Source of the DNA: a virus
Strand: one strand, 5' to 3'
IMG/VR virus record: IMGVR_UViG_3300029624_000070
Coordinates: 1 to 28,265 of that record
DNA: 28,265 nucleotides
This document shows positions 320 through 28,265 of this stretch, in pieces. The notes beneath the pieces are model-generated. The model was not told the DNA's origin. It did no database searches and worked only from the letters and a program-made list of their open reading frames with translations. Made by a program: the position numbers and the translations under genes. The first letter of the stretch is position 1. Each line of letters opens with the position of its first letter.

Positions 320-1381
320 TCATGTTCTGTTCCCGTTCTGGTCTCGTCGCTTCTGAGCTGCACGACTTAGATTCTTTCGGCTTGCTTTCTTCCTGTAGTA
401 GGCGACCATTTCAGCACTCTGGCCGGTGACAGCCTGGATTTCCGCGTCTGTCGCACCAGCCTCTGCAAGTTCGATAATTGCCAGTTTCCGCAGGCCGTGT
501 AGGGTGAATGACTTGGCCTCAGATCCAAGGCTTTTGCGCCAGGCTGAGAACTGCTTTTGTACAGCGTCGTAGCCGAGGGGTTGTGTCAGGTTGCGCGCCA
601 TCAGATATGCACCCTCTTTCGACAACGCATCGATATAGTTGCGTAGGAAATCCGGGCAGTAGATCTCAAATGATTGGTCACCCTTTTCGTCGGTGACCGT
701 CATATAGTGGCCTGAAAACTGATCATATCGCATCGCGACCGCAGCGCCCGGGCGCTGACCGGTGCCGCGCATAACATAAACAGCAGTACGAACGGCGGGT
801 GGCGCCGTCTCAGCTGCCTTGACCATCCATTCAGGCCAAGGCTCAAATGGTCTGCTCACCCCGTACAGATCGAAACCGGCAGCCGGGTTCTCGCCAAGGG
901 GCCAATCTTGTTTGTTCTTCGCATAGTTCCAAAGCAGGGAAACGACCTGAATCCGCCAGTCGGCCTTTCGAGGCGTGTCGGTCATCTTGCCGTGAACGGA
1001 CCTAAGCCCCTTGCGCGTCGTGTTGCGCATTGCCTTGTTTGCGTTTTTTTCTAGGAGGCTGTCAAATTCACGGCGATAGCTGCGCTTCGTTCCATCGGCC
1101 AGTTTCTTCTGGACCTTGGGGTCAGACCGCCACAGCTTTACGATCTCTGCCCAGGTGTATTTTGCAGGCTTCTCTTGCGCTGCATGCCTGCCGCTTGCGC
1201 ATTTCCAATACAGATCATCCAAGCGTTGGGGGTCGCCTTGCCAATCAAGCGTGATCGTCTTCTCTTTGCGCTTCCCTGCCTCTGTCCAGGTCACCCGATA
1301 TAGCGCCATCCAAGCTGTACCCTGCCGGTTCAGCTTCCATTTCAGTTTTGGCTTGGTTATGCGCGGCTTGGGCGGTTTCAT
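320..1381 (-). CDS. int: Phage integrase, tyrosine recombinase
   Basis: Site-specific recombinase that would integrate and excise the phage at the tRNA-Leu core about 100 bp downstream of its stop. The 353-residue protein has an N-terminal arm-binding/core-binding part (about 1-180) and a C-terminal catalytic domain. Visible catalytic residues are Arg210 in GTGQRPGAA, His295 and Arg298 in LHGLRK, and the nucleophile in MVAYYRKKA (Tyr328 or Tyr329, more likely 329). The second box-II histidine is replaced by Gln321, a known variation. The gene ends the leftward operon and its start overlaps the excisionase stop by 4 nt. Position beside the core and full family length make this call secure. Confidence 0.95.
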   Translation of the reverse strand: MKPPKPRITKPKLKWKLNRQGTAWMALYRVTWTEAGKRKEKTITLDWQGDPQRLDDLYWKCASGRHAAQEKPAKYTWAEIVKLWRSDPKVQKKLADGTKRSYRREFDSLLEKNANKAMRNTTRKGLRSVHGKMTDTPRKADWRIQVVSLLWNYAKNKQDWPLGENPAAGFDLYGVSRPFEPWPEWMVKAAETAPPAVRTAVYVMRGTGQRPGAAVAMRYDQFSGHYMTVTDEKGDQSFEIYCPDFLRNYIDALSKEGAYLMARNLTQPLGYDAVQKQFSAWRKSLGSEAKSFTLHGLRKLAIIELAEAGATDAEIQAVTGQSAEMVAYYRKKASRKNLSRAAQKRRDQNGNRT

Positions 1382-1914: not shown

Positions 1915-2405
1915 GCTTTTTCTCCCTTCATGAAAACGATCCAGTGAGATTTCGCGGTCTTGCCGCAGCGATTGCCAAAAAGTGGCTCTGCATCGGTAAG
2001 CTTTAGGATTTCGGCAACGCGGATCTCGTGTTCGTTCCATTTGAAGATCAGCGTGCCGAACGGTTTCAAAACGCGAAAGCACTCTGCAAAGCCCGCGCGA
2101 ATGTCCTCGCGCCAATGGTCACCAAGCTTCCCGTATTTCTTGGCAAGCCATCCAGACCGGCCGTTGTTGACCAGGTGGGGTGGGTCGAAAACAACCAAGT
2201 GGAATGTCTCGTCCGAAAATGGCAACGCGCGAAAATCCATCAGCTGGTCGGGGGCGATAATTAGCTGGCGCGACCCGCCCTTGCTTGATCTGTCTTTCAG
2301 CTGGTGGCTTTCCTCTCGTACGTCACCGAAGACAGCGCGGTCATCGGTTCGGTTGAACCAGAACATGCGGCTACCACAGCAAGGGTCGAGGATTGGTTTG
2401 TTCAT
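1911..2405 (-). CDS. Small SAM-dependent DNA methyltransferase-like protein
   Basis: A 164-residue class I methyltransferase fold. Motif I, the SAM-binding loop, is 'ILDPCCGSRMFWF' at residues 5-17 and the catalytic motif IV is 'FDPPHL' (D74-P-P-H77). The D/N-P-P-aromatic motif is typical of amino-methyltransferases (N6-adenine or N4-cytosine); His in place of Tyr/Phe/Trp occurs in a phage subgroup. There is no separate target-recognition domain, so substrate and site cannot be predicted. It is coupled to the cytosine methyltransferase upstream (4-nt overlap) and to the ASCH-like gene downstream. A non-DNA substrate is possible. Confidence 0.75.
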   Translation of the reverse strand: MNKPILDPCCGSRMFWFNRTDDRAVFGDVREESHQLKDRSSKGGSRQLIIAPDQLMDFRALPFSDETFHLVVFDPPHLVNNGRSGWLAKKYGKLGDHWREDIRAGFAECFRVLKPFGTLIFKWNEHEIRVAEILKLTDAEPLFGNRCGKTAKSHWIVFMKGEKA

Positions 2406-4579
2406 GTTGCGGCCTCCACTTCGACCAGGTGCGCGCAGTTGGCACGGGCCAGCGCCTCGGCCACCGGCGGGCAGACGCTATTGCCGACGCAACGCACTTG
2501 GGTGGTCTTGGGGAACTCGGTGAAGGTCCAGTCGTCGCCGTCCTGTCGCCAGACACCCTCGATCAAGTAGTCAGGCGGGAACCCCTGCGCATTGAACAGC
2601 TCGCGCGGCGTGAGCATCCGCATTCCCACGTCGACCACGACGAATGTCTGCCCGTCGATCTCGACCGTGACGAACTCGCGATCATCCCAAAGGTCGAACT
2701 GACGCAGCAGATCCGCCACCTGGCGGGCGCGTGCGGCATGGGCATCGGTGAACGGCGGGCAAGAGATCTGCGCCTCGCAATGTGCAAAGCGATCTTTGGT
2801 GGTGACCGTGTGGGCCGGTTCATCCTGCCGGGCGCCGTCGCCGGTCCCGTAGTATTTGGCAAAGAATGCCGAGACCGGATATTGCTTCACGCCACCTGCA
2901 ACCACCGTGTTTAGCGGCTTGGAAATATCGAGCGCGCGCGGTGACTGGCCGTCGCGCTCGCCATTGCCAACATGCACCATGGTCGCAGCGATCAGGCTGT
3001 TCTGATCCTTCTTGCTGGCACAGATGGTGTGGTGCGGATCTTCAATCGAGCGGTTGGCCCCGCCTTGCTGTGCATAGGTCAGCACCGGCGCGACAATGGC
3101 GGAGTGACCACCGCCGGCGAGAACGGTTGGGTGTGGCGCGGTGGCGGCGCTGTCGCGGCGTGCAGTGCCTTTCAGGCTCATCAGGTTAGGGGCGCACAGG
3201 GTCAGCCCTGCGCCGCCCGCTGTGACCGTGTGTGCGGGCTTGTCCGCGTCCTGCCAAGGCTTCTGGCTGTTGCGCATGGTGGCGAGGTGTGGGGCGATCA
3301 GCCCGGTTTTGCCACCGCCCCCCGCGACAACAGTTGGCACCGGTGCGGTTACTGACTGGCCAACGGACTGACCAAAGTGGCGTATCAGGGTTGGTGCGAT
3401 GACCGCGTGCGACACACCGCCGGCCGTGACAACGCCAAACGGATCTGTGAGCGGGTATTCCCGGCGTCCACCACTGTCACCGTGCGCCACGCTAACGAGC
3501 GACGGCGTTATCAAGCAAGCGTCTGCTTTGGCTGTCACCGTCGCGAATGGCTCGTTGCCGCCACGGGGCCGACTTTGAGCGGCACGCCCGCCACAGCCGA
3601 CGATTGTTGGAACCACCACTGCCTTTTCGCCGCGATTGGCCCCGGTGATCGTCTTGAACGGCTCTGCAACGTCCTCGACCCGTCCGCCGTGGGTCAGGTT
3701 GACAAAAAAGGGGCGTTCAGCTTGCAGCACATAGCGGTGCAGGCCGCGCGCCACGCGAGCGAGCGTGTTTTCAGCGAAAGGGCGCTTGGCGCGTAGGCCG
3801 TGCTTTTCCTTGATCGCGTCCTTGCTGTCGAAGATTGAGGGGCAGGGTATCGACCAGTCGATGCATTCAGCCGCGGTGCGCCAAGGTTTCAGCTTGCCAG
3901 ACTTCACGGCCTCGGATGCAGGGTCGCCGTGTGTCGGCTCCGGCCATGCAATCGGCTGACCGTCAAAGCGGATGATCACGAACAATCGGCGGCGGATCGT
4001 CGGGGCGCCATAGTCGCAAGCCCGCAATTCACGACGCTCGATCTTGCCGCCGAGCTGGCGGATCTTCTTGCACCAGGCGTTGAAGGTGTCGCCCTTGCGA
4101 TCTGGGCAGGGCATCAGGCCCTTGTCAGTCTCGATCAGCGGCCCCCAGCCCGCGAATTCCTCGACGTTCTCCATCATCACCACGTCGACCTTGCCGCCGC
4201 TCTTCTGGATGCGCTCGATCCAGCCCGGAATGATCCATGCGAGATCGCGGATATTTCGCTCGACGGGCTTGCCTCCCTTGGCCTTGGAGAAATGCTTGCA
4301 GTCCGGGCTGAACCACATCAGCCCGATGTGCTTGCCGTTCAGGTGGTCGAGCGGATCGATCCGATAGACGTTTTCGGACAGATGCAGCGTGTCGGGGTGA
4401 TTGGCCTCATGCAGGGCAAGCGCCGCCGGATCGTGGTTGATCGCAATGTCGGGGCCGCGACCAAGCGCTTGCTCGATGCCGGTGCTGGCCCCGCCACCGC
4501 CGGCGAAACTGTCCACGATCAAAGGGCGGTCATATACGCGCGCGGCGTTCAAGAAATTCATGGGGAGCTGAGCATTCAT
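2402..4579 (-). CDS. DNA cytosine-5 methyltransferase with repeat-rich recognition region
   Basis: The 725-residue protein has ordered C5-methyltransferase motifs: motif I 'DSFAGGGGASTG' (23-34), catalytic loop 'FSPDCKHFS' with Cys94, motif VI 'MENVEEF' (136-142), motif VIII 'RRRLFVI' (196-202), motif IX 'MLTPRELFNAQGFPPDY' (655-671), and motif X 'CVGNSVCPPVAEAL' (697-710). The catalytic loop has PDC where PCQ-type enzymes have PCQ. Between motifs VIII and IX, residues about 303-600 hold roughly nine copies of a P-x-x-T-[VI]-x-A-G-G unit ending in an AP or TP segment. Bacterial C5 enzymes are usually 350-450 residues, so this repeat block accounts for the extra length. No partner endonuclease is adjacent, so self-protection against host restriction is likely (inference). 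Confidence 0.92.
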   Translation of the reverse strand: MNAQLPMNFLNAARVYDRPLIVDSFAGGGGASTGIEQALGRGPDIAINHDPAALALHEANHPDTLHLSENVYRIDPLDHLNGKHIGLMWFSPDCKHFSKAKGGKPVERNIRDLAWIIPGWIERIQKSGGKVDVVMMENVEEFAGWGPLIETDKGLMPCPDRKGDTFNAWCKKIRQLGGKIERRELRACDYGAPTIRRRLFVIIRFDGQPIAWPEPTHGDPASEAVKSGKLKPWRTAAECIDWSIPCPSIFDSKDAIKEKHGLRAKRPFAENTLARVARGLHRYVLQAERPFFVNLTHGGRVEDVAEPFKTITGANRGEKAVVVPTIVGCGGRAAQSRPRGGNEPFATVTAKADACLITPSLVSVAHGDSGGRREYPLTDPFGVVTAGGVSHAVIAPTLIRHFGQSVGQSVTAPVPTVVAGGGGKTGLIAPHLATMRNSQKPWQDADKPAHTVTAGGAGLTLCAPNLMSLKGTARRDSAATAPHPTVLAGGGHSAIVAPVLTYAQQGGANRSIEDPHHTICASKKDQNSLIAATMVHVGNGERDGQSPRALDISKPLNTVVAGGVKQYPVSAFFAKYYGTGDGARQDEPAHTVTTKDRFAHCEAQISCPPFTDAHAARARQVADLLRQFDLWDDREFVTVEIDGQTFVVVDVGMRMLTPRELFNAQGFPPDYLIEGVWRQDGDDWTFTEFPKTTQVRCVGNSVCPPVAEALARANCAHLVEVEAAT

Positions 4580-9916: not shown

Positions 9917-10887
9917 GCCATAAGGCGACAAACTGGCTGGCAGATATTCCACCCAAGGCGCTCACGAACGCGGAGTTCCGGATCCTGTTCGTGCTGTGCG
10001 ATTGTCACAACCCGTCTGCGGGCTGTTTCCCGAAGCAAAGTTACATCATGGCGAAGACCGGACGCGGCAACAGTTCAGTGAACGACGCGCTGGCAGGCCT
10101 CGAGGCAAAAGACTTCATTCGACGCGAACAGCGGACCAATCCGAAGACCGGCAAGCGCGAGGCGACCCACTACATTTTGGGTTTTGAAATGGATGGCCCG
10201 CTAAATCCAACTCCAAATAGTGGAGACGGTAGCGATGGACCAAAGCCGGAACAAAACGGCGCGCCAACTCCAAATAGTGGAGATGGGTCCATCTCCGGTT
10301 TTTCGCCTGATCCATCTCCGGTTTTTGGGCCAAACCATCTCCGGAAAACCGGAGATGTATATAAGGAAGAACCTGTAAAGGAACCTGTAAAGGAACCTTG
10401 CGCGGCTGAACCCGCGCCCACGCTGGATGATTGTTCTGAGGATTTGTTGAGGGAGTTCGAGCACGTGTTTCCCAAGCTGGGGGCCGCGCAGGCAACTCGC
10501 AAGGCGATCAGCAAGGCTTTAGCCGCCGGTGCCACATCCGATCAGATCCTCGACGCTGCGCGCACCTATGCCGCCGAGCAGCGGGGCAATGATCCCAAAT
10601 ACATCCGGCGCAGCGAGCGGTTCTTCGCAGATGAATTCTGGCGGGCTTACATCCCGGCCCAGAAATCCACGCCCAGCGCCGAGGCGGCAGTATTCGCCGA
10701 GCAGTGGGGCAAGACGATCCGTGAGGTTGGTAAGGCCGGTTCCGGTCACTTCATGTTCGGTAAGATCAGCCGCGACACGGTCACCAAGTGCCTCGCGGCC
10801 CGCACTGTGACCGCCGGAGACTGCCGCCGCGCTGGGCTTGGGATTTCCGATGCGGACGCACGGGCCATGCTCGAGGTGGCGCAATGA
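9913..10887 (+). CDS. Replication initiation protein, winged-helix (gpO-like)
   Basis: A 324-residue protein. Residues about 16-92 form a helix-turn-helix/winged-helix domain ('LTNAEFRILFVLCD ... GCFPKQSYIMAKTGRG ... REATHYILGF') as in phage O-type and RepA_N-like initiators. A low-complexity linker (about 95-170) follows, rich in Pro, Asn, Gly, Ser and Glu, and then a helical C-terminal domain. The linker DNA carries tandem and inverted repeats (10207-10392), which in lambda-type O genes mark the origin. It overlaps the genes on both sides by 4 nt. The initiator role is inferred from domain, location and repeats; no helicase gene is seen nearby. Confidence 0.75.
   Translation: MSHKATNWLADIPPKALTNAEFRILFVLCDCHNPSAGCFPKQSYIMAKTGRGNSSVNDALAGLEAKDFIRREQRTNPKTGKREATHYILGFEMDGPLNPTPNSGDGSDGPKPEQNGAPTPNSGDGSISGFSPDPSPVFGPNHLRKTGDVYKEEPVKEPVKEPCAAEPAPTLDDCSEDLLREFEHVFPKLGAAQATRKAISKALAAGATSDQILDAARTYAAEQRGNDPKYIRRSERFFADEFWRAYIPAQKSTPSAEAAVFAEQWGKTIREVGKAGSGHFMFGKISRDTVTKCLAARTVTAGDCRRAGLGISDADARAMLEVAQ
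10207..10392. repeat. Iteron-like repeats inside the replication gene, probable phage origin
   Basis: There are two near-identical 23-bp units at 10207-10229 and 10264-10286, each with an internal CTCCA/TGGAG palindrome. TCCATCTCCGGTTTTT is repeated exactly at 10288-10303 and 10311-10326. A perfect 9-bp stem CATCTCCGG/CCGGAGATG with an AAAA loop lies at 10336-10357, and tandem 12-bp GAACCTGTAAAG copies at 10369-10380 and 10381-10392. All share a TCTCC/GGAGA core. This mirrors origins nested in lambda-type O genes. Confidence 0.7.
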
Positions 10888-11183
10888 GCGTCCACGCTGA
10901 TCCTGCCACACACGGGCACCGTTTCGGCGCTGTGGTGGTCACGGTCGACATGCAGGCCGGTGATTGCGTGATCCGCGCCCCGCAGCCCTGCAAAGGCCCG
11001 GTGTCAGTCGTTGAGCGTAAGGCGCGGTTCAACACCCTCGACGAGATCCGCGAAGCCTACCGAACGCAGAACTGGTTGAGCCGGAAGCCGCAGCAACACC
11101 CACATGCCGGAGACATGGCAAGCGCGCTCAAATTCGCGGGCCAACGCCTGAAAGCCGAACAGGAAAGGAAAAGCCGTGGTTGA
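10884..11183 (+). CDS. Hypothetical early protein
   Basis: A 99-residue protein coupled to the replication gene by an ATGA overlap. The first half is beta-rich ('RFGAVVVTVDMQAGDCVIRA') and the second half is helical and basic. I recognise no family. It is soluble, with no signal sequence. The start is fixed by the overlap. It lies between the initiator and a GcrA-like DNA-binding gene, so an accessory replication or regulatory role is plausible but unproven. Confidence 0.6.
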   Translation: MSVHADPATHGHRFGAVVVTVDMQAGDCVIRAPQPCKGPVSVVERKARFNTLDEIREAYRTQNWLSRKPQQHPHAGDMASALKFAGQRLKAEQERKSRG

Positions 11184-24770: not shown

Positions 24771-25303
24771 CCCGAACTGTTGACTTGGACGTGATGCACG
24801 ACGCGATGATCGCGCAGATTGCCGACTGGTTTCCGACGCTCGAGACGGTCGGTGACTATCAGGAAGATCGCAGAACATTGCCTGTTCCGGCGGTTCTGAT
24901 CGAATTGATCGACATGGAAGGCGACCCGGATGCAGACCCCGGCACCGGTCAAGCGCCTTTCGTTTCCAAATGGGTCGCGCGGGTAATCCTTGGCTCCAAA
25001 GCGGAAACCGTGAAACGAGAGGTGCGCAAACTTGCCGCGGCGTTGGGAGCGAAAGTGCATCAGCAGCGGTGGGGCCAGGCTGTGAGCCCCGCGCAGGTGA
25101 CCTACATCGGCCCGGACGCCTTCGACCCTGATTTTGACAAATTCGAGGTTTGGGCGGTTGAGTGGGATCAACAGATCGACCTGGGGGAAAGCGTCTGGAC
25201 GGGCGAGGGCGTTGTTCCGCAGGTGGTCAAGGTAGGGTGGTCGCCGGATATCGGCCCGGGCAATGAAGCCGACTATTCCGACAGCGTCGAGGCTGCGCCA
25301 TGA
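24767..25303 (+). CDS. Phage tail protein, possible tail terminator
   Basis: A 178-residue protein, alpha/beta: a helical start ('MHDAMIAQIADWFPTLETVG'), then 'PAVLIELIDMEG', 'ARVILGSKAETVKREVRKLA', and a long acidic end. The position after gpZ-like and before the spike gene, and the mixed fold, fit proteins capping the tail tube (tail terminator, gpU-like). I do not recognise a specific family. Both ends overlap neighbours by 4 nt, so it is coupled in the structural operon. Confidence 0.5.
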   Translation: MTRTVDLDVMHDAMIAQIADWFPTLETVGDYQEDRRTLPVPAVLIELIDMEGDPDADPGTGQAPFVSKWVARVILGSKAETVKREVRKLAAALGAKVHQQRWGQAVSPAQVTYIGPDAFDPDFDKFEVWAVEWDQQIDLGESVWTGEGVVPQVVKVGWSPDIGPGNEADYSDSVEAAP

Positions 25304-25677
25304 GTTACGGAGCCGCTAGGAGCGAACAGGCGCGCGAGGGTATTGTGCGTTTCGGTGTCGTGACCGCATTGGACCCGGGCGCGGCGCGAGCGAAGGTCAG
25401 TTTCGGGGGCGAGAATGAAAGCGGTTGGTTGCCCTGGCTTGCTCCCCGGGCGGCTGCGATCAGCGTCTGGGCGCCCCCCAGCGAGGGGGAGCAGGTGATC
25501 GTTCTGTCGGAGTCTGGCGATACCGCGCAGGGCGTTATAATTGGATCTGCGTTCAGCAATGGCAATGCGAGCCCAGCCGCAAGCGCCGGCCTGTTCAAGA
25601 TCCAGGTCGGCCCGTCCTCGATTGAAATCGACGCGAGCGGAATCCGCATCAAAGCCCCCAAGATTGATTTGAACTGA
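25300..25677 (+). CDS. Baseplate assembly protein V (spike)
   Basis: A 125-residue protein. An OB-fold N-terminal half ('GIVRFGVVTALDPGAARAKV', 'ENESGWLPWLAPRA', 'PPSEGEQVIVLSESGD') leads to a short beta-helical end ('SIEIDASGIRIKAPKIDLN') made of alternating residues. This is the P2 gpV/Mu gp45 family, the membrane-piercing spike of contractile tails. It is shorter than P2 gpV (211 aa), with a compressed beta-helix. Its stop overlaps the PAAR gene as TGATG. Confidence 0.85.
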   Translation: MSYGAARSEQAREGIVRFGVVTALDPGAARAKVSFGGENESGWLPWLAPRAAAISVWAPPSEGEQVIVLSESGDTAQGVIIGSAFSNGNASPAASAGLFKIQVGPSSIEIDASGIRIKAPKIDLN

Positions 25678-25967
25678 TGCCAGCGGTGACCCGAAAAGGA
25701 GATAGCTGCACTGGACACGGGGATTTTCCACCTCGACCCAGCACCGGCGGCAGCGGCACAGTGTTTGTCAACGGAAAGCCTGTTCACCGCCAAGGCGATG
25801 CTTGGGCGGTGCATTGCAACCCGCTGAATGTCTGTCATGGCGGCAGTCTATCAGCCGGGTCGGGAACGGTGTTCGTCGAGGGCAAGGAAATCGGCCGGAT
25901 CGGTGATCCAGTCGGCTGCGGCTCGTCCGTGGCAAGCGGTTCGGACGACGTGTTTGCGGGCGGTTGA
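25677..25967 (+). CDS. PAAR-domain spike tip protein
   Basis: A 96-residue protein with repeated glycine/histidine motifs: 'KGDSCTGHGDFPPRPS', 'FVNGKPVHRQGDAWAVH', 'CHGGSLSAGSGTVFVEGKEI' and 'RIGDPVGCGSSVASGS'. PAAR proteins form a metal-bound cone that sharpens the gpV spike. Visible His and Cys residues could hold the metal. It has the TGATG coupling typical of this operon at its start. Its own stop is also part of a TGATG, but the ATG there now leads to an immediate stop; see the insertion entry. Confidence 0.85.
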   Translation: MPAVTRKGDSCTGHGDFPPRPSTGGSGTVFVNGKPVHRQGDAWAVHCNPLNVCHGGSLSAGSGTVFVEGKEIGRIGDPVGCGSSVASGSDDVFAGG

Positions 25968-26007: not shown

Positions 26008-26142
26008 GCGGCCTTTCGAGTGCCGCGCGGAAGGCGAACCACAGGCATGCGCAGGAGAGCAACCTTTGCAAGGTCAGGGGGACGGGTACAATTCCTGTAC
26101 TGACCGGCCTTAAGCGGCCGTTCGCTACGGGGCATAGGGCCC
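26008..26142 (+). ncRNA. Strongly foldable non-coding leader, possible structured RNA
   Basis: A series of hairpins: GCGGC/GCCGC (26008-26012 with 26022-26026), ACCTT/AAGGT (26062-26066 with 26070-26074), GGTCA/TGACC (26072-26076 with 26101-26105) enclosing GTACA/TGTAC (26086-26090 with 26096-26100), GGCC/GGCC (26106-26109 with 26116-26119), and GGGC/GCCC (26130-26133 with 26139-26142). The second and third share bases, so they are alternative states. The 26072-26105 part resembles a tRNA acceptor/T-arm minihelix. It matches no RNA family I know. Orientation follows the downstream gene. Confidence 0.35.
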
Positions 26143-26419
26143 AGACCAGCGTGGACGTTGGGCTATTAGGTCCGGATGATCGCAGTGTGGACAAAAAGAA
26201 CTTTTTCGTAGCGACTGCGCCAATGTCGGTTTCCGGGCGACAACGTACAAAAAACGCGATTACTCAAAATCATGCAGACCGACGAAGGAATAAATTCTTC
26301 AGGTCGTTAAGTGTCACTGGTTCATCGCCGTCGAAATGATTTGCCTTACGCAAGTTCTGGGATACGCATTACTAGAGCAAAATGCGATAAACAGCCCGAA
26401 ATTTGGATCGGAATGAACT

Positions 26420-27547
26420 ATGACACTGGGTGCTCTGATTGAGATGCCTGCGCATCTGATCATCGTGAGTGACTTGCTTGCGACAGGCGGCGGGACGTGC
26501 ATCACTCCGTCGAACATCACGATAGACGATATCCAGCTCGTGAACAGAGCGGACAGCAATTCCAGTTTGGTTCGTAAGTTCCTCACCCTAAGTGAAAGTC
26601 GGATGGTGACATTTGCAGGTCGGGCGTGCCAAATTGTTGAACTTTCAAAGTCATTTCACCCTGTCCTTAGCGATGGCACGGATTCCCGTTTGATGGTGCA
26701 GGAGGCAATGGAGGTTTATTGGGAATTTCTTGAGAAATACACGCCACTCGGATCTTCGGCGCTGCAAGGCCCCCAATTTTTGGGCACCGTCGACGGAGCG
26801 CTATTCGGTAGCGCTAAACGCGATGGCGGTTGCTATCCAGATGGAGACCGGTATTCGTCAAATCTATTAGGCGAGTTCCATGCTATCGGGACCGGAGCCA
26901 AGGATTTCATTGCTTTGGTCAAGGGATTTGAGGGCACCTTAAAAACCAAACCAGAAACCTCGGACCAAATGCTAGAGCAGAACTGTCGCCTATTAAAAGT
27001 GGTTACGGCTTCTAAGCTATTCATAGATGAGGGTGACCCAAAAAGCCGAGATACCTGGGGCGGTATGCTGGACTTCCGAATTCTCGACTTTGTCAATCGC
27101 CGAACACTCAGAGATCCAAGTCAAATGTACCTGTCTGTGACTGTAAACTGGGATCGAAACCCCACCATGTTCGAAATCGGTCACAAAGTCGTCTGGATCG
27201 ATCCGCACAGCGCTGACCGATCATTGTCGATCTTCTTGCGCGGCGAGAGAGAGGCAACATATCAAAGGCTAGACTGGAAGATCTGCGATTTGATTAAACC
27301 GGATCATACGCCGCCACCGCAGCTAGGTTCATCGAAGTGTCCAAACGAAGTTCACATAATCTTCCATCATTGCAAGAGAGATCAGATCTTTGAATCCCAC
27401 TACGACTTGAGTGGAAGCGACTTGGATTGCTTTCGCTATGATTTCCAGTCAAGGCCACCAGATTTCACACGCTTTCCAAGCCTACACAATCTTATTACTC
27501 GTGAGGTCCGAGACGGCTACCTTCGCGCACTACTCGGACCTCGTTGA
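26420..27547 (+). CDS. Proteasome-like Ntn-hydrolase with novel C-terminal extension
   Basis: A 375-residue protein. The N-terminal about 235 residues follow the proteasome beta/HslV/Anbu pattern: Thr2 right after Met (the nucleophile once Met is removed, no propeptide), 'LIIVSDLLATGG' with Asp18 (Asp17 in proteasome numbering), Lys53 in 'VRKFLTLSES' before 'TFAGRACQIVEL' (Lys33, after a longer loop), 'HAIGTGAKDFIALV' (the Gly-Ser-Gly helix-dipole loop) and 'SRDTWGGMLDFRI' (the Asp166/Gly170 loop). Residues about 235-375 are an extra domain I do not recognise. HslV is about 175 and Anbu about 240 residues. It stands alone in the inserted segment, without an ATPase partner. A defence or moron role is inference. 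Confidence 0.65.
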   Translation: MTLGALIEMPAHLIIVSDLLATGGGTCITPSNITIDDIQLVNRADSNSSLVRKFLTLSESRMVTFAGRACQIVELSKSFHPVLSDGTDSRLMVQEAMEVYWEFLEKYTPLGSSALQGPQFLGTVDGALFGSAKRDGGCYPDGDRYSSNLLGEFHAIGTGAKDFIALVKGFEGTLKTKPETSDQMLEQNCRLLKVVTASKLFIDEGDPKSRDTWGGMLDFRILDFVNRRTLRDPSQMYLSVTVNWDRNPTMFEIGHKVVWIDPHSADRSLSIFLRGEREATYQRLDWKICDLIKPDHTPPPQLGSSKCPNEVHIIFHHCKRDQIFESHYDLSGSDLDCFRYDFQSRPPDFTRFPSLHNLITREVRDGYLRALLGPR

Positions 27548-27957
27548 GAGTTGGTTTTGTCCAAGGCAAAGAGAGGATGTCTCATTTCGTCAATAGCAAT
27601 GCCTTTGGACGCTCGCTTGTGTTACGGCATGGCCGCAACGTTGGTCCAAACGGATGTCCGGTTTTCCCCGTTCTTTGTGCAGTGTAGTACGCGCGTCTGT
27701 GGCAGGCGGGCCTGCTTTGGGCTGGCTACGTTCTCAGCCTTGAGGCGGTTGAGCTGCGGAACTTTCCCGTTTGGACGACTTCCGACTTACCCAAACCAAA
27801 GGCCCGCTATCAGCACGACGGGTGTCTACTGAACATGCTGATATTGCCTACCTAACTGTGATGTTGCTCGATGCCAACAGGTATCAGTTTATCTCATCGG
27901 CAGCAGAAGGGAAAACCGCCAGAGGCGCGCGGGGCGGATCTCAGCAAAGATCGCCTC
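27548..27957. other. Gap between accessory gene and gpW
   Basis: There is no convincing gene. A frame from ATG 27577 is open for 36 codons, meets TAG at 27685, and continues open to TAA at 27853-27855; it could be a decayed gene. A frame from ATG 27871 joins gpW in phase but lacks a ribosome site. A hairpin with stems GGCG/CGCC and ATCT/AGAT lies within 27934-27955, immediately before the gpW ATG. AAAACCGCCAGAGG (27912-27925) also occurs at 15311-15324. Confidence 0.4.
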
Positions 27958-28265
27958 ATGATCGGCATCGACGCAACCACGGGTAAGCACATTTCGGGAC
28001 TGGCGCATTTGCGCCAGTCTGTGCGCGATATCCTTACCACCCCCATCGGGACGCGGGTTATGCGGCGCGACTATGGTAGCCGTCTCTATCGTCTTGTTGA
28101 TGCGCCGATGAATGCCGCCACGCGCCTCGATATGGTGGCAGCGACCTACGAGGCCTTGGAAACTTGGGAGCCACGCCTCGATCTTGAAAGCGTCAGCGTC
28201 GGGGTTTCGGAGCCCGGCAACGTGGTCATTGATTTGGTTGGGCGGTATTTGCCAACCGGCGAGAC
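27958..28265 (+). CDS. Baseplate assembly protein W (gp25-like), partial
   Basis: 102 residues are seen before the window ends. The pattern 'HISGLAHLRQSVRDILTTPI' followed by 'GTRVMRRDYGSRLYRLVDAP' is characteristic of the GPW/gp25 family: P2 gpW, T4 gp25, TssE. It is a wedge protein of contractile baseplates, which settles the tail type as myovirus-like. The ATG at 27958 matches the usual N-terminus of the family ('MIGIDATTGKHISGLAHLRQ'). The gene has lost the short spacing to PAAR seen among its upstream neighbours. Truncated by the window edge. Confidence 0.9.
   Translation, partial: MIGIDATTGKHISGLAHLRQSVRDILTTPIGTRVMRRDYGSRLYRLVDAPMNAATRLDMVAATYEALETWEPRLDLESVSVGVSEPGNVVIDLVGRYLPTGE

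Follow-up and report, generated by a model that had tools for sequence, protein, structure and literature searches.

A predicted proteasome-superfamily Ntn-hydrolase of a rare family is carried as exchangeable cargo in the baseplate region of a temperate phage of Roseobacter-group bacteria

INTRODUCTION

Fuchs, Alva and Lupas (2021) described the proteasome homologues PPH and AAH in phages, and marked phages also for CPH, PMI-4 and DAH (PMC8665760). Their study catalogued solitary proteasome homologues, phage-borne ones included, and contained no contexts hinting at function. Connectase has its active site covered by an insertion that lies between strands S3 and S4 (PMC8665760). Because phage-borne solitary proteasome homologues (PPH, AAH and others) were described in that work, the kind of gene considered here is already known, and a first-pass annotation, which knew of no comparable gene in phage tail modules, has to be corrected on this point.

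In the present study, we analysed a virus record of 28,265 bases, hereafter the window, that holds a gene for a putative proteasome-like protein between two baseplate genes. The gene adds a very divergent branch to the proteasome superfamily, one missed by the models of Pfam, NCBIfam and PADLOC. Furthermore, it places an orphan proteasome homologue in an exchangeable prophage slot that in other phages of the group holds, among others, a defence-like gene and a toxin-antitoxin pair, which leads to a testable idea of phage defence.

RESULTS

The phage and its cargo slot

The window carries tyrosine integrase, terminase, portal, capsid, neck and baseplate genes (Table 1), and the tyrosine integrase gene indicates a temperate life style. 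The nearest terminase, at 97%, is in Tritonibacter mobilis, and the phage belongs to a temperate group of Roseobacter-type (marine Roseobacter-group) bacteria. On the minus strand, positions 2402-4579 encode a protein of 725 aa in which a C-5 cytosine methylase domain (PF00145) was recognised, the best stretch giving a match in the N-terminal part only.

Aligned with the related loci L023/L198 and L199/L278, the window loses homology at 26026-26030 and regains it at 27768-27776, which delimits a cassette of about 1.74 kb. The G+C content of the cassette is 0.51 compared to 0.61 in the phage structural region, and the third-position G+C content of the window gene is 0.54 compared to about 0.72 in large phage genes. 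The slot between the PAAR and gp25 genes was empty, that is, shorter than 300 bases, in 41 of the 52 non-identical related slots, and the remaining, filled slots contained differing cargo on either strand, examples of which are listed in Table 1. No homologue of the window gene was detectable in the other PAAR-gp25 slots. The comparison shows that the window gene is an accessory single-gene cargo in an exchangeable PAAR-gp25 slot. A promoter and terminator scan of the slot gave results no better than chance, and the direct repeats flanking the cassette (78% over 18 nt) are too weak for any claim on the mechanism of exchange.

Among the cargoes of related slots, the DUF4145 protein of L002/L200, whose terminase is 97% identical to that of the window phage, matched the PADLOC model PD-T7-4 at E 1.5e-8. 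DUF4145 is a HEPN-type domain (PMC3710099), and PD-T7-4 is a system recovered in a functional selection (PMC9519451). This was the sole convincing match of a slot cargo to a defence model, most cargoes being of no known function. For the 318-aa cargo of L199, the matches with defence models (ZorG, DruC and SMC-like; best E 7.7e-5) were all weak and may represent coiled-coil similarity only.

Table 1. Positions of the features of the window and of cargo in related PAAR-gp25 slots
Feature	Position	Strand	Basis or remark
Tyrosine integrase	320-1381	-	PF00589, 9.5e-12
Baseplate spike (gpV-type OB domain), upstream of PAAR	25300-25677	+	PF04717, 1e-13
PAAR-motif spike-tip gene, left border of slot	25677-25967	+	PF05488, 1.4e-18
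Exchangeable cargo cassette	26031-27767		Alignment to L023/L198 and L199/L278; composition
Predicted divergent proteasome-like (Ntn-hydrolase) cargo gene, 375 aa	26420-27547	+	ORF, homologues, alignment, profile-profile support
Thr2 codon, predicted nucleophile (Thr1 once Met is removed)	26423-26425	+	Invariant in 4/4 homologues, always right after the likely start
Asp18 codon (proteasome Asp17)	26471-26473	+	Invariant; in register with superfamily S-D motif
Asp-to-Lys stretch, insertion at S3/S4 site near predicted active site	26474-26575	+	Spacing table; PMC8665760
Lys53 codon (proteasome Lys33)	26576-26578	+	Invariant
Phe-Ala-Gly 65-67, predicted oxyanion-hole strand (Gly47 equivalent)	26612-26620	+	F65 and A66 invariant
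Gly-Thr-Gly 157-159 (proteasome G-S-G loop)	26888-26896	+	G157 and G159 invariant; middle residue Ser/Thr
Thr-Trp-Gly-Gly 212-215 (S/T-G-G loop, Trp inserted)	27053-27064	+	W-G-G invariant; Ser/Thr before it in 4/4
C-terminal part after GG loop, 149-162 residues in family	27065-27544	+	W286, I288 and D295 invariant
gpW/gp25 baseplate wedge gene, right border of slot	27871-28263	+	PF04965, 2.5e-17; extends past window end
Slot cargo: DUF4145 protein	L002 18597-19292		Same prophage as L200 5398-6093
Slot cargo: 303-aa probable membrane protein	L004/L010/L011	-
Slot cargo: 227-aa protein	L042
Slot cargo: HTH_73 protein and 148-aa protein	L023
Slot cargo: 318-aa protein	L199 5542-6498	-
Slot cargo: PrlF-YhaV toxin-antitoxin pair	L355 4158-4987		Farther relative

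The gene and its homologues

The open reading frame is intact and begins with ATG followed by ACA (Thr); its 375 codons compare with a longest open run of 283 codons in 2,000 shuffles of the cassette. The deduced protein had no meaningful match in Pfam, NCBIfam, PHROGs, PADLOC or PDB sequences; PF00227 (Pfam Proteasome) and the other HMMER family libraries gave none, nor did the PADLOC defence models even at E 10. No homologue was found by tblastn of the protein and its relatives against phages and plasmids or when contigs of viruses and genomes were scanned for degenerate peptides and DNA patterns, two pattern matches being due to chance.

Some 1,200 bacterial genomes were searched and yielded three full-length relatives with 23-27% identity, all from Rhodobacterales. 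L106 was found by a translated search of 397 Tritonibacter-family genomes (E 5.7e-13, 28% over residues 1-295), and L130 (E 2.6e-17) and L131 (E 3.4e-10) by scanning 395 genomes of the order with a profile built from two sequences, while 385 genomes of the class contained no relative at E 0.01. The protein family is thus real but rare. The threonine codon is preceded by ATG in L106 and L131 and by TTG, a usable start, in L130, so all four proteins start with Met-Thr. Thr2 and Lys53, whose loss in homologues the first-pass annotation had named as a sign against its reading, are kept in all three relatives.

L106 and L131 are lone genes beside dusA and uvrB, outside recognised defence islands, and L130 adjoins an integrase gene with an AIPR/AbiU gene about 9 kb off. 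Congeneric genomes of two homologue-bearing species contained no homologue, and the synteny of L106 and L131 ends after dusA and uvrB. No AAA+ gene adjoins the window gene or is common to the homologues, in agreement with the earlier remark that an unfoldase partner is lacking. Antitoxin-like small genes were absent next to the homologues and inside the cassette, which, apart from the window gene, contained only short, unsupported open reading frames. Just upstream of L131 (L133, about 10715-10915) lies a dispersed repeat of ~170 nt, present in roughly 40 copies in genome G997; it is strongly folded as RNA (z -2.4) and had no Rfam match.

Conserved positions

The alignment of the window protein with L106, L130 and L131 (alignment A2) contained 23 invariant columns, including M1, T2, S17, D18, T22, K53, F65, A66, G157, G159, W213, G214 and G215. 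Most of the catalytic marks first read from the window protein alone, namely Thr after Met, Asp at +16, Lys before an Ala-Gly strand and a G-T-G loop, were recovered at T2, D18, K53, F-A-G65-67 and G157-T158-G159. The distance from Thr to Asp is one residue shorter in L131, so that Asp follows at 16-17 residues across the family. The Asp-to-Lys stretch is 35-40 residues long compared to 16 in the archaeal beta subunit, and the spacing from Lys to Ala-Gly is 14 residues in all four proteins, as in the beta subunit of Thermoplasma. G67 is kept in three of the four proteins and replaced by Ala in L130, and 86-90 residues separate the Ala-Gly strand from the G-x-G loop. A hydroxyl residue, Ser or Thr, is kept at the positions of proteasome Ser129 and Ser169 (T158 and T212 in the window protein).

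Asp211 of the D-x-x-GG loop, which had also been counted as a catalytic mark, does not qualify as one: the four proteins have D, N, D and A there, and the position is not that of proteasome Asp166, for which the alignment contains no conserved equivalent. The roughly 140 extra residues noticed at the outset are partly conserved in the family (K256, R267, W286, I288 and D295). Within this part, residues 272-307 gave weak recurrent matches to amidinotransferase-like proteins, and residues 275-307, which read Q-R-x-D-W-x-I-x-D...P-x-H-x-x-P-P, are alike at ~40% identity to a stretch of such proteins (L108 and L120). As L106 aligns across the region without that motif, this likeness was judged probably due to chance.

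Profile comparison with the proteasome superfamily

Reference sets of HslV, Anbu, BPH-like, archaeal beta subunit and PMI-like proteins were assembled from genomes and plasmids, the family names being assigned in this analysis. The Thermoplasma beta-subunit sequence of the spacing comparison was matched over its full length by PDB 1pma and 3c91. The A2 profile aligned with the combined set at hhalign P 1.9e-5 and with the BPH, beta and PMI-like set at P 2.7e-6 over residues 1-226, where the T, D, K, AG, GxG and GG positions were all in register. The real score of 50.5 compares with maxima of 26.3 in 500 column shuffles and 38.5 in 500 block shuffles. With 14 unrelated profiles, P was no better than 0.16; one further control (p324) gave an absurd score and was discarded as an artefact because shuffled queries gave the same score. 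Between accepted relatives, P was 0.19 for HslV and Anbu, 0.001 for BPH/beta and Anbu, and 5e-6 for PMI-like proteins and HslV.

The profile support depends on the reference set, as P was 0.003-0.26 with single-family or very small references, 0.018 with Anbu and PMI-like proteins, 0.012 with HslV, BPH and beta, and 1.5e-4 to 4e-4 with an enlarged PMI-like set. A single-sequence AlphaFold2 model had a pLDDT of 29 and gave no usable structure. The invariant catalytic positions and the profile match together make it very probable that the window protein has a proteasome-like (Ntn-hydrolase) fold. It is, as judged from its sequence, a very divergent member of a new, rare branch of the superfamily, marked by an insertion close to the predicted active site and by some 150 additional residues at the C terminus. 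The original proposal, a solitary Ntn-hydrolase of the proteasome superfamily that a phage carries among its tail genes as accessory cargo, is thus supported by the profile match and the slot comparison.

DISCUSSION

A possible role in the prophage

The closest siblings among the phages compared fill the same slot with other genes, one of them anti-phage-like, so a host-protecting gene appears most likely. Among more distant relatives, solitary PMI-like homologues lie next to a GajA-like ATPase and a helicase on plasmid pLN1 of A. tumefaciens, and next to LeoA and LeoBC dynamin-like GTPases on a plasmid in K. pneumoniae (STIN_94). Both the slot-mates and the neighbours of relatives suggest, but do not prove, a defence function. 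As these contexts are few and come without an enrichment test, defence counts as the leading role but an unproven one.

Considering these results, we tentatively propose the following scenario, in which the window gene encodes a self-contained proteasome-superfamily Ntn-hydrolase from a family both new and rare, sits by itself in an accessory cassette in the baseplate region and most likely protects the lysogen from phages. As the comparison of slots shows, the cassette enters and leaves the position between PAAR and gp25. The protein would be made from its own start, and methionine aminopeptidase of the host would strip the Met and free Thr1, as suggested by the Met-Thr start of all homologues. 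The active site would then consist of Thr1 and the equivalents of Asp17 and Lys33, and the insertion and the C-terminal part probably select the substrate in place of an AAA+ unfoldase. In the lysogen, a specific protein would most likely be cleaved or trans-acylated, which, judging from the slot-mates and the neighbours of relatives, may protect from other phages. This protection could be by direct attack or by abortive infection. A bolder form of the scenario, conceivable but on the doubtful side, is that the gene represents a new class among the anti-phage effectors encoded by one gene, namely a threonine peptidase of proteasome fold that works without an unfoldase, sits in a prophage slot and cleaves a specific protein when infection occurs. 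The peptidase would be kept off or aimed by the insertion at its active site and by its C-terminal part. Among described defence systems, none with a proteasome-like effector is known to us.

The same enzyme could have a main role other than defence, in lysogenic conversion, such as processing a single host protein or controlling its quality; roles of this sort have been imagined for BPH, Anbu and other orphan homologues without known function. We consider this somewhat unlikely. It would suit such a role that L106 and L131 stand alone in the chromosome next to dusA and uvrB, that the majority of slot cargoes did not match a defence model, and that the contexts seen by Fuchs et al. gave no hint of what such homologues do (PMC8665760); the patchy occurrence (three in about 1,200 genomes) and the exchangeable cassettes, however, fit a role in conflict better than housekeeping, and the slot-mates include one defence-like gene and one toxin-antitoxin pair. 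Counter-defence, in which the hydrolase would cut a host immune protein at infection or induction, agrees with a phage-encoded gene downstream of the spike genes and on the same strand as the late tail genes. But the orientation of the cargo varies between relatives and many slots are empty, so the cargo is not tied to late expression, and homologues occur also in chromosomes without phage genes; this reading is therefore unlikely.

A toxin, solitary or of the toxin-antitoxin type, acting against the host's own proteins upon prophage loss or stress, is very unlikely. The single-gene cassette would suit it, as would the presence of PrlF-YhaV in the slot of a more remote relative, but the cassette and the neighbourhoods of the homologues lack an antitoxin-like small gene. 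Still a little less likely is a Connectase-like protein ligase, whose active-site insertion would serve peptide transfer between two specific proteins: the insertion at the S3/S4 site of connectase and the additional C-terminal part speak for it (PMC8665760), but connectase is without helices H1 and H2, both of which could be accommodated here in the 86-90 residues that separate the Ala-Gly strand from the G-x-G loop. That the protein is no Ntn-hydrolase and the agreement of motifs coincidental is extremely improbable; although there is no library match and the profile support is moderate and dependent on the reference set, canonical positions are invariant and their spacing is conserved in four divergent proteins, and the scores exceed those of every shuffle.

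Comparison with known systems

The window family shares with the proteasome superfamily (20S beta, HslV, BPH and Anbu) the order Thr1, Asp17, Lys33, Ala-Gly47, G-S/T-G and S/T-(W)-G-G. It differs in an Asp-to-Lys distance of 35-40 instead of 16, a Trp in the SGG loop, about 150 residues past the GG loop, and the lack of an Asp166 equivalent and of a nearby unfoldase gene. HslV is a subunit of about 175 residues encoded with HslU, whereas the window protein has 375 aa and no HslU, and the genome of the Tritonibacter relative has a separate hslV of its own. Anbu, of about 240 aa, has a T-Y-C start and a match to Pfam Proteasome, a match that the window protein lacks, and is carried separately in genomes G306 and G997.

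Like the window protein, PPH, RPC and AAH are solitary, occur in phages or prophages and are without unfoldase, and RPC has a C-terminal extension without match (PMC8665760). PPH has only about 140 residues, and PPH and RPC are without helix H2 (PMC8665760). The window protein is thus set apart from PPH by its length, the 22 clusters of Fuchs et al., RPC, DAH, PMI-1 to PMI-6 and GPH included, being compared by description only. PMI-like plasmid proteins (L191-L197 and L358-L361, a label of our own reading) have an M-T start, the Asp, Lys, A-G and G-G loop, and an extra C-terminal part with a W/D-P-D-like end, and are solitary on mobile elements; they differ in the lack of a G-S-G loop and in other insertions, and as a set on their own they gave no significant profile match with the window family (P 0.15-0.16). 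PMI-like homologues on conjugative plasmids were observed close to defence genes (L191 485-4834; L193 1-4834). Connectase is similar in layout, with an S3-S4 insertion and an additional C-terminal domain, but is archaeal and without H1/H2. The slot itself resembles the defence hotspots of P2-type prophages (Vassallo et al., 2022; PMC9519451). The phage and the position of the slot, here between PAAR and gp25, are different, but in both cases conserved phage genes flank a slot whose cargo varies among close relatives and includes defence genes or, here, a defence-like gene.
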